Positions 30,579-57,374 of a stretch of 64,000 nt of DNA are shown here, piece by piece (position 1 is the first letter of the stretch; every line of letters begins with the position of its first letter). Position numbers and translations under genes: made by a program. Under the pieces are notes generated by a model that saw only the letters and a list, made by a program, of their open reading frames with translations, was not told the DNA's origin and made no database searches. Source of the stretch: Cavenderia fasciculata (taxonomy: Eukaryota > Evosea > Eumycetozoa > Acytosteliales > Cavenderiaceae); assembly GCF_000203815.1 (NCBI RefSeq), contig NW_004457715.1, positions 372,001 through 436,000 on the forward strand, written 5' to 3'.

Positions 30579-32876
30579 ATGAAATTAAATATAGATCTTT
30601 TAACAACGATCATTCTTGGTGATTGTAATAGTAATAATAATAATAATCAAAGTAAACAATCAGAGTCAACTGTTGCTGTAAATAGCACACCATCAACTTT
30701 ATCTAGTTCCGATTTAAAAGATACAGTCGTTGCAACTACCAATAATCAAGAGGAAACAATAACCATAGCATCATCAGATAGTCTTGATCAAAGTAACAAC
30801 AACAATGATACAAGAAACATTGTAACAGATTTAACAACTACAACTACAACAGCAACAATAACTAATGAAACACAACACAAACAACAACAACAACAACCAA
30901 ATGTAAATAGTAATAATAATAATGATAACAACAATAACAACCATGATTCAATACAACAACAACAAACCAATATAGAACAAGATAATTCAAGTCACTTGCC
31001 ATTTGTACAATTTACTTCGACTTTGGTGCCTGTATCTTCTTCATTTTCACCATCACCTGGATCATCTATACTTTCTGGATCACCTATAACCTTTTCTCCG
31101 ATATTACCTGGTCATCTTCATAGTTCTCTCAACAATAGTGTCGATTATGAGATAAGTAGTGGCGTTCAATATCATCATACTGGCGGGTCTGGACACAGTC
31201 GGTTAACTGATAATATCCTTTCCCCGCCACAATCTCCCCTACAACATTCATCATCTTCTTCATCCCATTCTTCAACTACGCCACCTGTTGTATCACCAAG
31301 ATCTCCTATCATCACCTATCCAGTAGTTTCTGGAATTGGAAATAATTATAAAAATGATTCTCAAACAAATAATAATAATCAAAATAATCAAAATAATCAA
31401 AATAATAATAATAGTACTAACATTACTTCAAATAATAATCAACATAATAATAATAATACGAATAATAATACGAATACGAATACGAATAATACGAATAGTA
31501 ATAATAATAATAATCCAAAAAATACAACGCCTAGAGGATTATCATCAAGTACAGGAAGTAATAGTAATACAACAAATATAAATAATCAAAGTAATAATAA
31601 TAATACTAATAATAACAAAACAACTACACCATCAACACCAAAAGGCAAACAAAATGTATATCCAAAGCCACCAAATCACCAGAATCATCGATTAAAACAA
31701 CGTACATTATTTGAAAAATTGTATACAGAGAGTGGATTTACTTCGGCAAAATCATGGTATGAACGAAATACAGAGCACAGCGAGTTTACATTGGGAGAGC
31801 AACAGTTTACACTCTTTTTGCGATTTTTGACCGATTTTTCCACCTTTGAAATACTGGATATCTTTGATTCGTTGGACAAGGATGATATTGGTCGTGTTGG
31901 TTTTGAAGAATTCTTTTTATTGGTTGCACTCTTTGCAAGTAGAGAATGTGGTCAGACTACAAAATTCCTCTATCAACACAGTAAAGTCATGTTTGAAATC
32001 GTATCTGGTCGCAGTTGTATTCGGTCCGATGGAACTATTGATCCCTCGTACACTATCAACTTTCATCGATTCACCAAACTCGGACGTGTCCTCGGTATAC
32101 CCGAGTATCAAATGCTCAACAGTTTGGAAAATTTCAATTTAACCATATTTGATCGTATCAATTTCGAATCATTCCTTCTCTACTATTTTGTTATCCTAGA
32201 CGAGTGGGATAGATCATCTTACACTTTTCTTAAAGTTTTATTTTATGATCAAGATTATACAGAAATAATTGATGATTCTCAAAGTAATAATTCTTCTTCT
32301 TTATCTTCTTCTTTAAATAATAATAATAATAATAATATAAATAATAATATAAATAATAATATAAATAATTATAATAATAATATAAATAATAATAATGGTA
32401 TAAAATCTTCAAATGGAATTCAACAACCTCCTACATCACCTCAACAACAAAAAATTAAAAATATTACGATAACAAGTACAACATTTAAAGATTTTTCAGA
32501 GGAATTTAAAAAGTTTATAGATAGTCTAAGTAAATTGGATATGTCACAAAAAGAAAATCTCATCAGCATGCTCATTCAACATGGAATCTTTGGATTCGAT
32601 GATGCTAGAATGGTACCCATCGATCGATGGGCAGACATGATTAAAAAGAATTTAACCAGAAAAATATTCCTAAAGGCTTTATACGATAGATTACAACACC
32701 TTCCACTTCATATTCAACAATTAAACCAACAACCACAACAACAATCAAGTATACCTTATCAACCAGGAATACGACATCAACAACAACAAAATAATAATAA
32801 TAATAATAATAATAATCATTCACCAAATCAAAATTTCAAGGCACTTAAAAGAATATTTAACTTTAAATCATCTTGA
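30579..32876 (+). CDS. EF-hand protein with long Asn/Gln-rich regions
   Basis: Single exon, 765 aa. Residues 1-360 are mostly low complexity (Asn, Gln, Thr, Ser/Pro). A folded core from about 368 to 560 begins LFEKLYTESGFTSAKSWYE. It contains one good EF-hand (DKDDIGRVGFEEF, with D1, D3, G6, V8 and E12 of the loop) within FEILDIFDSLDKDD, followed by a helical segment (INFHRFTKLGRVLGIPEYQ) that looks like a second, non-binding hand. After an Asn spacer comes another short conserved block (MLIQHGIFGFDDARMVPIDRW), then a Gln/Asn tail. Calcium binding by the first hand is plausible. The general layout of paired hands recalls EFCAB-type proteins, but I cannot name an orthologue. Confidence 0.85.
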   Translation: MKLNIDLLTTIILGDCNSNNNNNQSKQSESTVAVNSTPSTLSSSDLKDTVVATTNNQEETITIASSDSLDQSNNNNDTRNIVTDLTTTTTTATITNETQHKQQQQQPNVNSNNNNDNNNNNHDSIQQQQTNIEQDNSSHLPFVQFTSTLVPVSSSFSPSPGSSILSGSPITFSPILPGHLHSSLNNSVDYEISSGVQYHHTGGSGHSRLTDNILSPPQSPLQHSSSSSSHSSTTPPVVSPRSPIITYPVVSGIGNNYKNDSQTNNNNQNNQNNQNNNNSTNITSNNNQHNNNNTNNNTNTNTNNTNSNNNNNPKNTTPRGLSSSTGSNSNTTNINNQSNNNNTNNNKTTTPSTPKGKQNVYPKPPNHQNHRLKQRTLFEKLYTESGFTSAKSWYERNTEHSEFTLGEQQFTLFLRFLTDFSTFEILDIFDSLDKDDIGRVGFEEFFLLVALFASRECGQTTKFLYQHSKVMFEIVSGRSCIRSDGTIDPSYTINFHRFTKLGRVLGIPEYQMLNSLENFNLTIFDRINFESFLLYYFVILDEWDRSSYTFLKVLFYDQDYTEIIDDSQSNNSSSLSSSLNNNNNNNINNNINNNINNYNNNINNNNGIKSSNGIQQPPTSPQQQKIKNITITSTTFKDFSEEFKKFIDSLSKLDMSQKENLISMLIQHGIFGFDDARMVPIDRWADMIKKNLTRKIFLKALYDRLQHLPLHIQQLNQQPQQQSSIPYQPGIRHQQQQNNNNNNNNNHSPNQNFKALKRIFNFKSS

Positions 32877-42594: not shown

Positions 42595-45500
42595 TTATAT
42601 TGAATTGGTTGGAATATTATTTTTTAAATCTATTATTATACAAGTAATATTATCATCGGAACCTCTAAAGAATGAATAATCACGTAAACGTTGAGCTGCA
42701 ATTCTCATATTGGGTGATGCAATTACAATGTCACAGGCAGCTTGATCACCAATTTCATCCCAAACACCATCGCATGCCACAATGATAAATTGGTCTGCTG
42801 ATTTGTCAGACTCTGTAATCGATAGATGAGGATCTGGTATGACATATGGTTCCATGTAAAAGTCACCTATCGATCTAGACACTGCCAATGTACCATTGAC
42901 ACGAGCAGTATCACCACTCGATATGACAAACCCACCGGCTCTACGTATTCTAGCCTCTTCTTTTTGGTCATTTGGTTTGTGATCAAACGATAGACGAATG
43001 GCTCTATTATTTCTACACAAAACGATACGAGTATCACCAATATTTGAGACAAAGTAGTATCGTTCGTTGATTAGGATGGCAGCAGCAGTTGCACCGCAGT
43101 ACTTTAGTTCTGGTTTCTCGTGTGATATGTATTGTTTAAATTGTAGTGACACCTCGCTGTATGCCTGTTTGAGCCATTGTAGAGGTGGCAGCGATGGATA
43201 TCTATCGATAAGTGTCTTTAGGATAACGGGGAACCACTCGCATGAATAGGTTGCTGCACGTGGACCGGCGTGTCCATCAAACAATGTGATGAGATCCATG
43301 GTGGAAGAACCTGAAAAACAACCTCTAATAGAAAAGGCATCTTCCATGGTTGGACGACGTCCAATCATCTCTGCCATTTCAAAGTTGAATCGTTTGCTTG
43401 CCGTCCAAATCAAATCTGCCAAATCACCATTCTTGGCTAGTTTGTTGTGATGGTAGATGAGATGAAGAGAGTTGGTCTTGGTGTTGATTGAAGCTTGACT
43501 GCTGCTACGACTCATCGCTCCAGGTGCAGGTGTCTCTGCGCCTCGTGGCGATGAGAGTGGTGACGATGGTGAAGAGGGTGACGATGGATGGTTGTAGAGG
43601 TAGATGTCGGGTATGGACGTTAACGAGTTGAATGAAACGTCAAAGATAAATAGATTGGATAGCGTGGCAAGTAACTCGTCAAAGGGGATAGTATCGAGTT
43701 GATTACAAGAAAACGATATAACCTGCAAGTTTTCAAGTTGCATAAACTCTGTCCAATCAACCGATTTGAGTAGATTATTGGAGAGATCTAATTTCTCGAG
43801 TGAACGACAGAGATAGATGAAACGAGGCACTTGAGCCCATTTACATGAAGCCATCGATAGCTCACGGAGTGATGGAAAGTATTCAACGGTTGGATCGGCA
43901 GCACCAATCGTTAATTGCTCATTGCCATTGAGATATAGTTCTTCGAGTGAGTAGTAAGAATCTTTGGGAAAGGCAAGTGCCTTTAGACTTGGATTGTAAC
44001 CCAAAAACAACTGTGACAATGATGGACAATCTTGCCATATATTGGCTGGAAACTCTTCCAAGTGGTTGTCACATAGATTAAGACAAGTGAGAGATGGTGA
44101 TTGGCTAAACAAGTTGTTTGGCAATGTTTTCAATTGATTATTAAATAATAGTAATGTTGTCAATTGCTCTAATACCATCGTCGTCGATAATGATGATGAT
44201 GTTGAACCTTGACCATCAGCTGTAGGAACATTGGGTAGATCTTGTAGACGATTATCAGATAGATCTAGATGGGTAAATGGACAACCAATTGAAAATAATC
44301 TTTCTGGTAACTTTGTTATTTGATTTGAACGTATCTTGAAATCACGTAAACTATACAATGAATATTCATTACCATCTTGTTCTTGCTCTTGTTGTTGTTG
44401 TTGACCACCACCACCAAATAAACTATCTGGTATTAAAAGTAATCTATTAAAAGATGCATTGAATGTTTGTAAAAGTGTGAGATAACGTAGTTCCTCTGGT
44501 AACTCTTTGAGATGATTGTGACTGATATCTAGATTGGTTAGACTCTCTAGATTTCCCAACTCGCTTGGTACTTGATCGAGCAAGTTGTGACGCACTGAGA
44601 AAAAGGTGAGAGCACGTAACGTTCCAATCTCTTGTGGTAGATCCTTTAGACAATTGTAAGATAGATCCAAATAGGTGAGTGCTTGTAAATGTTGAACATC
44701 TGTAGATATTGCACGTAAACGACAATGTGCCAAATAGAGTGTTGAAATTTGACTATACCAAAACAGTGAAGGTGGTAGATAGTTTTCACCATCCCATCCG
44801 GGTGCTGTATTTGATGATAAATCTAATTTGGTCAATGTACTAATATATCCATATTCGGCTGGTAAATGGTTGGGTTGGTGGTCGGTTGTCAAAACAGTCT
44901 GTTTTGTTTCTTGACTTGATTGTAATGTTGGTGTTGGTAGAGTGAGATCATCGACATCTGAATGATTAACTATAGCATCTGGAGGAGGAGTAGAACTAGT
45001 AGTGGGAGCAGTAGTATCCTCTTTGGCAGGTATCATAAATTGGTTACCTGCCAATAATAGAGTTGTCAACTCTGTCAATGTGCTTATAGATGTTGGCAAT
45101 GATTTTAAACGATTGTAACTAAAATCCAATGTAACCACTTTACTCAACTCACCAATTCTATTTGGTATCTCTACCAATTTATTCTTGCTAACAATGACTC
45201 GCTGAAGATTGACACGACTAACCAAATCTTCTTCATCTAATTTTTCTGCTCCACTACTTGATCTAAAAGAAATTAGAAATAAATTAATAAATAAATAATA
45301 ATGAATCTAATAATAATAATAATAGATAATAATAGATAATAAACATACTTATCATAAATGATTGAATATAAAACGGAACCAGTTTTTGGAGGTAATTTAA
45401 ATTGATTACCAGAAGATCTTCTTGATGGTGGTGGCGATGAAGTTGGACTAGAATTCTTTGATGATAATAATCCAACTTCATTTAAAGAGTTGGATTGTAT

Positions 45501-50348: not shown

Positions 50349-52771
50349 TTAGTCAAAATATTCTTTTCTTTTGTTTGGATTATTATATGAAGTAAAAGAT
50401 GATGATGATCCTACACCAGTATTGTTACTGCTACTACCACTGTTATTCTGATAGTGATCAGCAGCAGAGGCAGTGGTTGTACTACTATGGTGATGGTGAT
50501 GCATTGGATTAAAATGGCTATGACCACCACCACCACCACTGCTACTATGACTATTGTCAGATTCATTGTCATCGTGTAGTTGTTCAATGTCACTAGAGGA
50601 TGACGTTGACGATGTCAATGATTTAATGCTGCTGAGATAGTGCATGTTATTCGATGATCCACTACCGCTACCACTGTTGTTGTTGTTGTTATTACCATTG
50701 TACGATGAGGTGGTAGTAGTGGTGGTAGTAGTGGTGGTAGTTAGAGATGGTGGCGAGAATGGAGCACAAATAGAACCCAAAGATGGAGTGGAGATGTTTG
50801 GACTGGATGTGGCACCACTCGATGGATCATCGCTGTCACTTTTAGTTCTCTTCTTTCGGTGTTGTTGACTACCTTGAGAGCTAGCAGATGCTACTCCTTG
50901 TTGCGATATCGATGAACCGCTACTTTCTCCTGTTGGTGGCACATTGGACGACGAAGAGAATGGAAAAGAAGAGAGAGCAAAGGGTGGGAAAATATCACGG
51001 TTACCTCGTGTAGGTGAAGCATTGTTGGTTGGTAGAGGCAAGATACCTGGACTACCACTGGATCCAAATACAAAGGGACTGAGTGACGAAGATGATGATG
51101 GGACTGGATGCATCGAACTGGGAGATTGGGTCAAAGGAGGTGTATTTACATTCATTTTAAAGGGGAAGGGTTGAAGTGAAGTTTCGTGGAGTTTTAATGG
51201 CGATTGGTTGAAAAAGGATGATGATGTTGACGGCGTGGAGTTTGTGGCGAGTGGAGGAGTTGATCCTAAAATAGGGGTGATGGAACTGCTTCCTCCGCCA
51301 CTGTTGGGGCCAGTACTACCGCTGTGGTGACTATTATATTGGTGACTGGACGAGGCTGAGGATGAGTGATGACTAGTACTATCGTCTCGTGACGAATAGT
51401 TTGGCGAGGTGGTTGAATAAATCGATGAGGTTCGGTCGTATGGTTTGAGATTCTGTGGGTTTGTTGTTGATGATGAGGCGTTGGTTTGAATTGGGCTGTA
51501 CATGTTGGAATAATCACCATAGGATGATTGGTGTGTGTTGTTATTACTGTTATTATTATTACTGTTATTATTTGATGAGGGATATATTTGATGATGATGT
51601 TGTTGTTGGTGATGATGTGACATTTGATCTTGTTGTTGATAGGGGTACGATGATGAAAGGTTGTGGAAATTGGGTGTTTGTGGTGTTTGTTGACCTGGTG
51701 AGGGGTAGAAGTATTGGTTGGATGAATGTGGATCCTTGAATGAGTGGTCTCTTGGCGATGATGACAATTGTGGACTGTTAACACCGGGTGGTGGTGGAAG
51801 GGAAACATAGGAATCGGATTGGTTGCCTCTGGATGTATGGATATTATTATAAGAGGTATATGGACCATGAGGAGTATGATATCCATCATTGATATTGTTG
51901 CCAGATGTTGGGAAATATGGGTTTGTTGATTGGAATGGTTGTTGATGTTGTTGCATTGCTGAAGATGAAATGTATCCACCACCTGCACCACCAGAGTGAT
52001 GTCCAAACGGTTGAGTATAAATAACATTGCTATTTGAATTGCCAGTTGGTGATTGGTTGTTCATTTGATCATATGAACCCTCTAGGAATCTTAAATTTGG
52101 TCTAGGATTGGGGTTGTATTGATTCAGCTGCTGAGATGGTGGAGGTAGTGCAATCGGATGATTGGCAACTTGGTGTTGTTGATGATGATGATGATGATGT
52201 TGTTGTGGAATGTATGGATGATGGTTGATGACTGGAGTTGGGATGGTAGTGTATGCCTTTGGATTTCTATTGAAATCATCTGGGGTGGTATATGAGATAT
52301 TGTTTTCAGGATCGGGATACAACTTTTTTTGATCATTATCTTCCTTGTCTCTTAGAAAATGTCTAAGTAGAAGGTCTTTCTTTTCAGAACCACTTGAATC
52401 AGCCAGAGTAAACTCCCACAACTTGACTTCTTTTGTTTCATCTTGTAATGTCAAGGTTCTCTTGTATCCAATAATCAATTCCCCTTCCTTGATCTTTGTA
52501 TCTGAACCATTTTGTTTCCATGACAATCCTTGAGTATTTTTTCTGATTTTATTATTTTTTGGTGTATCTATTTTTCTTCTTACAAAGTGAAATTCTCCAT
52601 CTAAATTAAATAAATATAGGTAATGGATATATAATATTAATAACGATTCTTATCATAGTTAATTATAGTTTTTTTAAACTTACCTCCTCTTGAGTTATAA
52701 TGGGAAATAGATTCTTGTTCACCTTTTTCAGGGATAATTTCACCAGAGATGGTTACTTGTTGTCCTTGCAT
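50349..52771 (-). CDS. NAC-like domain protein with long disordered tail
   Basis: Two exons (52771-52684 and 52600-50349), phase 1, give 779 aa. I chose the ATG at 52771 because it follows TTAAAAAA, a typical dictyostelid start context. An in-frame ATG at 52825 would add 18 AT-rich codons. Residues 30-97 resemble the DNA-binding half of plant NAC domains: GEFHFVRR, WKQNGSDTKI (plant WKATGKDKPI), ELIIGYKRTLTL (plant VVGMKKTLVF) and KLWEFTLAD. The N-terminal NAC dimer subdomain (LPPGFRFHPTDEELV-type) is absent. The rest is Ser/Asn/Gln/His/Pro-rich and disordered, like a transcription factor activation region, with SKSLT/SSDIE-type acidic patches near the end. A transcriptional role is inference. 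Confidence 0.85.
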
Positions 52772-53383
52772 TTTTTTAATTATATAATTTATATAATTGT
52801 TGTTGTGAAGTCTGTGTGGATACATTGTTGTTGTTGTTGTTGTCGGTTTAGATCATCTACAAAGATGATAATGATAAATGAAAAAAATAAATAAATGGGA
52901 TGGAATTATTATTATTATTATTGATTGTCTACAAAGAATATAGGATTTCTTTGTGACCCTGGAACTTTAATTGTTGTTGTTGTTGTGGTTCCAATGATGA
53001 AAAAAAGGAAAAGGGGAGAAAATAGATTTGTCTTTTTATATTATTTGGATAAATATATAGGTTGATTGATTGATTGATTGGTGACTGATGTGGTGGTTGG
53101 TTGTTGATCTCTCTCTCTCTTTTTCTATTTTAATAAAAAATATCCGATAGTTTTTAAAAATCTGGATGATGGTACATAGAGTAGTGAGGTGATAGGTATG
53201 TAGATTAATAGATAGATGGATAGATAGAAAGATAAATAAATAAAATAGGTATGTGGGTAGGGAAATATGAAGATACAAAAAGAGTTAGTATTGTTACTGT
53301 AAATGATTGAATGATCCTATTATTAAACATTTAATTTTGAAAATAGAAGAGGAATGGGAGAATGAGAGGGGAGAATTAAAAAA

Positions 53384-56131: not shown

Positions 56132-57374
56132 ATGAACACATTATCTACAACTACTTTAGGTTCTAATAACATCAACAACAACAGTAAATATTATGATGTC
56201 ATATCAGAGTTTATAGAGGTTGCATGTCATTGTATATTATATGTTAGAGGTGTATATGATTCATGTAGGTTTGATATATATATGTATATATTATAGATTC
56301 TTCTTCTTCTTCTTCTTCCTTTCTAATATCTTTTGTATTCTATTTGACCTATATATAGGTCTATTTCAAAGATCATTAAAGTATGGAATTGCTGTTCCAA
56401 TGAGCAGAAGTATACAACTTCAAAACTATATTGCTGCAACTATAGATAGTCTAAAGATTCACCTGTTCAATGGATCTATTGATAAGATTTCTATAGCAAT
56501 ACTTGATAGTTTTGGTGCTCCCATAGAAAGATTCATGTTTGATTTTGATCAACAACAACAACAACATACCAACAACAACAATAATAACAAACAAAACACA
56601 AAGAATGATAACTTGATATCTAAAATCAAGGATGGAGGTATTATTATACTTGATGATAGTCAATCTCAACAACAACAATTACAAAAGGATAAAGATAAAG
56701 AATTTAATAACTATCTAAATATCTTTAAAGAATCAAATATTAATTTAAAGAACCAACAAACAACTAATAATCAAAATAATCAAAATAATCAAAATAATAA
56801 TAACCAAGTAGTTGATTATGAATTATTAGAGAGATCATTTCAATCCTATTTATTAAAATTATTGTCATCAGAATCATACCTACCATTCAATAGAAAAGAT
56901 AGAATGGATTGTACATTTACAGTTTATGCATTCACCAAGAAAAGAATTAATAGTATAAACAATAATAATAATAATTCACTTCAAATAGACCCTTTGAATG
57001 CTCCTGGTGGTGGAGAAGCTGGTGATTTAAATACAAATAACAAGAAAACTACAACCAATAATAATAGGCCAATGACATGGGTAGGTGTCAATGATGAAGA
57101 ATATCAATTTCAACAACAACAACAACAACAACCAAAAGGCAAAGTGTCTGCAATACCATTAAAGTCGATATTTAGTGGCATATCTTCCAATCAACCAAGA
57201 TATACTTTATCGACATCGATAGAATATATAGAATCACAAGGCGAGATGATGGACAACAACAACAACAATAAGGAAAATGTAAAGGATGGTTTACAATTTG
57301 ATCATGATGACAATAATAATAATAATTTGATAGATGTGCCAATGGTTGAGCATTATTCATCAGAGGAAGAATAA
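56132..57374 (+). CDS. rev7: REV7/MAD2L2 HORMA-domain protein
   Basis: Adaptor of DNA polymerase zeta and of end protection in other eukaryotes. Two exons (56132-56264 and 56359-57374), phase 1, give 382 aa. The ATG at 56132 opens the frame leading into DVISEFIEVACHCILYVRGVY (human: LCEFLEVAVHLILYVREVY). Exon 2 continues LFQRSLKYGIAVPMSR (IFQKRKKYNVPVQMSC), IDKISIAILDSFGAPIERFMF ([21 protein letters not shown]), then LLERSFQSYLLKL and CTFTVYAFTK (CTFTVLVHTR). The end word AIPLKSIFSG matches RLIPLKTM. Human REV7 has about 211 aa; the surplus is Gln/Asn-rich insertions (about residues 135-240 and 290-310) and an acidic tail. It is convergent with the acyltransferase gene. Confidence 0.93.

Follow-up and report, generated by a model that had tools for sequence, protein, structure and literature searches.

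The plant NAC (NAM/ATAF/CUC) domain corresponds to the Pfam family NAM (PF02365), and its structure is represented by ANAC019 (1ut4, 3swm), rice NAC1 (3ulx) and ANAC092 (7xlj). As a rule, this domain has been regarded as confined to plants and their nearest relatives among the algae. Indeed, NAC factors have been termed plant-specific (PMC9675596), and one survey lists them in one of nine algae, Klebsormidium, with three genes, and gives PGFRFHPTD(D/E)L as the word of NAC subdomain A (PMC7147800). The dimer contacts of plant NAC have been assigned to Leu14-Thr23 and Glu26-Tyr31; the same source describes a DNA-contacting sheet edge shared by NAC and WRKY and presents GCM (PF03615) as structurally akin to NAC (PMC11121595). 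For the social amoebae, a census of five dictyostelid species, including Dfas, did not detect NAC/NAM (PMC6873476, Table 1), and the presence of WRKY genes in these organisms, a parallel case, has been explained by lateral transfer (PMC4350883). Among the papers listed by our searches of the open literature, none describes an amoebozoan NAC in its title or abstract; a report elsewhere is possible.

Gene model and order of the NAC words

The window analysed here is a stretch of 64,000 nucleotides of the Cavenderia fasciculata genome (positions 372001-436000 of contig NW_004457715.1, denoted C9) with a mean G+C content of approximately 33%; genome searches covered 30,995,898 bases in 21 contigs. 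On the minus strand of the window we predict a gene of two exons (52825-52684 and 52600-50349), the product of which would comprise about 797 amino acids. Exon 1 (52684..52825) begins at the predicted start codon, ATG 52825, and carries residues 1-47 together with the first base of codon 48; it would be joined to exon 2 (50349..52600, including the stop codon) by removal of an 83-nt GT-AG intron in phase 1 (52601..52683). Judging from sequence only, an in-frame ATG at 52771 is an alternative start that would give 779 residues instead of 797; use of the upstream ATG brings the score against NAM up to 30.5 bits, from 28.9. The four words on which a sequence-only reading of this DNA had based a NAC-like core (GEFHFVRR, WKQNGSDTKI, ELIIGYKRTLTL and KLWEFTL) are all found in the minus-strand frame 52600-52398, and its numbering of the core as residues 30-97 agrees with a start at ATG 52771 combined with the GT-AG intron 52683-52601.

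Plant NAC proteins and the window protein have in common an N-terminal domain followed by a long low-complexity tail. In the latter, the NAM match lies in residues 14-107 of 797 and the tail takes up 657 residues (141-797; 50352..52322, minus strand) rich in S, N, P, T, H, Q and G, within which RKKRTK (residues 629-634; 50841..50858, minus strand) is, by its pattern, a candidate nuclear signal. The plant words EIDL, EWYF, WK, VG-KK, HEYRL and CR have amoeba counterparts in the same order, at an overall identity of about 20%. Following the minus strand from the N terminus, the segment YINYIIKKMQ (residues 11-20; 52766..52795), which aligns with EYIEILRLF and EYLELLNIF of two paralogues described below, precedes WKQNGSDTKI (residues 75-84; 52491..52520), the counterpart of plant WKATGTDK, with WKQN in the amoeba protein where plant NAC has WKAT. 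This is followed by GELIIGYKRTLTL (residues 87-99; 52446..52484), matching VGxKKxLVF, by KLWEFTL (residues 107-113; 52404..52424), matching WxMHEYRL, and by LLLRHFLRD (residues 124-132; 52347..52373), at the place of the last NAC strand, VLCRIYKK. In the alignment, the inter-strand loop between TLTL and LWEF is approximately six residues shorter in the amoeba protein than in plant NAC.

Profile evidence and a family of three genes

Profile comparison, the check suggested in the sequence-only reading, yielded a significant match to NAM, a profile of 122 positions with a curated cut-off of 27 bits. The 140-aa domain beginning at ATG 52825 matched with an E-value of 5.6e-7 and 30.5 bits, its residues 14-107 covering profile positions 17-112, and a 122-aa version also scored above the cut-off (E 1.7e-6, 28.9 bits). 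None of five controls of the 140-aa domain (four shuffles and one reversal) matched NAM at E-values up to 10. Scores fell below the cut-off for a 208-aa segment (E 1.1e-5, 26.3 bits), for the full-length protein of 797 aa (24.7 bits) and in an exon-wise NAM search of the genome, in which the window gene alone was matched (24.9 bits). The score of the full-length protein may be the reason that the dictyostelid census recorded no NAC/NAM (PMC6873476), and a domain that falls below the NAM cut-off and shares about 20% of its residues with plant NAC could have escaped earlier surveys. When 177,635 PDB sequences were searched with the 140-residue domain using phmmer, the sole match at E-values up to 10 was NAC domain protein 92 (E 0.018), which was also retrieved with 130 residues (E 0.022).

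A genome search with the window domain recovered, besides the gene itself, two further loci, C3:210082-210225 (E 3.6e-4) and C2:238870-239076 (E 0.001), and reciprocal searches with the domains of these paralogues returned the same three genes at E-values up to 10. The spliced models predict proteins of 421 (C3) and 229 (C2) residues, with identities to the window domain of 27% and 30%, respectively. In the C3 gene, which also has a second intron, the first AG was chosen as the intron end. The exon 1 lengths of 142 (window), 154 (C3) and 139 (C2) nt imply phase 1 for the first intron of all three genes, and in each it lies at a matching place, at most two codons away from GE[F/I/L]H. The columns invariant among the three amoeba domains include W-K-Q, T-L and L-R-H. 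The core DNA-binding word, GYWKATG in NAC, reads WKQNG in the window protein, WKQNE in C3 and WKQTQ in C2, so that W and K are kept in all three, and indeed in all six sequences of the alignment with plant NAC, whereas of the amoeba proteins the window protein alone retains the G and the D of WKATGTD.

NAM ranks first among Pfam families for the window domain, its full-length protein and the C3 domain, in the last case below the cut-off (E 0.029, 15.3 bits) and followed by MCM4_WHD (E 0.061). No Pfam match was obtained for the C2 domain or for the full-length C3 and C2 proteins; in the PDB, the C3 domain had no match and the C2 domain matched caspase-6 alone (E 0.8), which looks like chance. 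A profile built from the three amoeba domains placed NAC92 third of five PDB matches (E 0.36), after two that also look like chance. Profile-profile comparison with hhalign gave the amoeba family a score of 27.9 against three plant NAC domains, compared with a maximum of 20.6 in 200 column shuffles, and a nearly identical one, 27.8, when the window domain was extended at its N-terminus (500 column shuffles peaked at 22.2). With the window gene left out, the two paralogues scored 27.0, a value that none of 500 shuffles attained (maximum 23.8). The corresponding hhalign probabilities, obtained with thin profiles, were 24.5, 23.6 (longer N-terminus) and 19.9% (paralogues alone). Seven columns, in the IAEIDL, EWYF, WK, VG, HEY and CR words, are invariant across the three amoeba and three plant sequences, a number also reached by 3 of 200 shuffles. 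The NAC relationship claimed from the window sequence is supported both by the NAM match of the window domain and by the paralogues, which match plant NAC when tested separately.

The amoeba proteins differ from plant NAC in the N-terminal region. The PPGFRFxPTD arm of plant NAC is absent from all three amoeba proteins, which have a different segment at its place, and the subdomain A word PGFRFHPTD(D/E)L was looked for in the three proteins and is absent from each of them. The earlier assertion that the N-terminal dimerisation part is missing accordingly holds for the arm but not for the region as a whole, given that an N-terminal counterpart is present and that, with the upstream ATG, profile position 17 is where the match to NAM begins. 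Indeed, MAFFT placed the N-terminal segments of C3 and C2 (EYIEILRLF and EYLELLNIF, with INEIDL in C2) on NAC subdomains A-B. The idea of a stand-alone half-domain was abandoned in the light of the paralogue sequences: in the alignment, the N-terminal NAC segment and the final strand (VLCRIYKK/LLLRHFLRD) both have amoeba counterparts, in the plant order. Because the stretch of the plant dimer contacts is the most changed one here, dimer formation would have to differ or be absent. Furthermore, with no subdomain A word and with paralogues that fail to attain the NAM cut-off, the amoeba family is better classed as related to NAC than as canonical NAC.

Two AlphaFold2 models of exon 2, differing in length and each predicted from a single sequence, had mean pLDDT values of 39.8 and 42.5, too poor for use. 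The strands of these low-confidence models fall at plausible places, and a Foldseek search with the pLDDT 42.5 model gave four matches, the best with an E-value of 7.1.

Alternative explanations

Judged from the sequence comparisons, we put the probability that the product of the window gene is a divergent transcription factor of the NAC type at roughly 0.8. The weak scores of the paralogues, the third rank of NAC92 in the family-profile search, the absence of the PPGFRFxPTD arm and the 3 of 200 shuffles that reach seven invariant columns would also fit a small beta domain specific to dictyostelids, with W-K and G-Y-K-R words, that resembles NAC by chance or convergence and not by common descent. 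We consider this unlikely in view of the NAM E-value of the window domain, of the absence of a NAM match in the five controls, and of the paralogue score against plant NAC that no shuffle reached. Origin from a WRKY- or GCM-type domain, through loss of the zinc ligands and drift to a NAC-like sequence, is still less probable, with rather slim odds: the window protein does contain a W-K-x-x-G-like word, WKQNG, similar to the fungal WRKY word WKNNGNT (PMC4350883), and a DNA-contacting sheet edge has been described as common to NAC and WRKY (PMC11121595), but Pfam scans of the window domain, the full-length protein and the paralogues gave no match to WRKY or GCM, and the alignment of the three amoeba domains contains no zinc-ligand pattern. 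A GCM profile search of the genome gave no match anywhere, its controls included, and is therefore uninformative. The genome encodes four WRKY domains (PF03106), two on C3, one on C18 and one on C12, at loci different from those of the NAC-like genes; against these, the amoeba family scored 10.9 with hhalign, a chance value, with 86 of 300 shuffles scoring as high. Plant NAC compared with the same four domains is also at chance (9.4, reached by 233 of 300 shuffles), so this test is blind to a deep NAC-WRKY kinship; the kinship detected is with NAC, and hhalign shows a NAC-WRKY link neither way. In the course of these searches we noted that the WRKY matches at L015:1187-1357 (C18) and L016:1501-1677 (C12), both above the cut-off, have WRKYGQK replaced by HWLLNTIKF and SWNRMGSTK, respectively, and keep the C and HNH zinc-finger positions.

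There is likewise only a small chance that the protein is a true NAC homologue that has lost DNA binding and acts through protein contacts. Such a loss would agree with the altered core word of the paralogues and with the restriction of G and D to the window protein, but none of the six aligned sequences departs from W and K, and an N-terminal domain joined to a low-complexity tail resembles the build of a transcription factor. As for a recently acquired plant gene, or contamination of the assembly by plant DNA, the description of NAC factors as plant-specific (PMC9675596) and the attribution of plant-type WRKY genes in amoebae to lateral transfer (PMC4350883) might lead one to expect it; nevertheless, we regard it as scarcely credible and the least probable of these alternatives. 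The identity to the aligned plant sequences is about 20%, the three genes are divergent (27-30% identity to the window domain), the contig is 499,581 bases long and carries ordinary eukaryotic neighbours, and N/Q/S tracts occur in many ORFs of the window. These observations speak against a recent event and leave room for an old transfer of a NAC-like gene.

Possible function, origin and genomic surroundings

Under the reading preferred here, that of a divergent transcription factor of the NAC type, the N-terminal domain, approximately 130 residues long and homologous to plant NAC, would form the NAC beta-sheet, and the strand carrying WKQNGSD would, by analogy with plant NAC, enter the major groove of DNA. 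The long S/N/P/T/H/Q-rich tail may serve as a regulatory region acting on the transcription machinery, as suggested by the analogous layout of the plant factors, and RKKRTK perhaps helps nuclear entry. With the plant arm absent, any dimer would probably form via another surface, perhaps the N-terminal segment.

With regard to origin, we tentatively suggest, at odds clearly short of even, that NAC predates the streptophytes and that dictyostelids keep a pre-plant, armless form of it as a small transcription factor family, either ancestral, dating from before amoebae and plants parted, or exchanged between the ancestors of the two. Under this scenario, the PPGFRF arm would have been added afterwards, ahead of the NAC expansion in plants. 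The NAC-type gene switch might then be older or more mobile than thought, and the amoeba family would bear on the origin of the domain and supply an outgroup for NAC evolution. It would also give a group that serves research on multicellularity a further, unstudied gene family. No relatives were detected in viral contigs scanned with two alignments, amoeba and plant NAC, as well as with the window protein, or in prokaryotic genome contigs scanned with the window protein, although such single-protein scans reach close relatives only.

Among ten other ORFs of the window scanned against Pfam at E-values up to 0.001, eight had matches and two did not. The matches include poly(A) polymerase, a tRNA synthetase, PP2C with leucine-rich repeats and a CAF1B/HIR1 propeller, and this neighbourhood fits a native eukaryotic context, not contamination. 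Three of the ORFs deserve mention for features of their own. The plus-strand ORF at 30579-32876 (765 aa) contains extended N tracts and lacks a Pfam match at that threshold; another plus-strand ORF, at 56241-57374, combines long N/Q tracts with a weak HORMA match below the cut-off (E 8.5e-4); and the minus-strand ORF at 42595-45036 joins leucine-rich repeats to a PP2C phosphatase domain.
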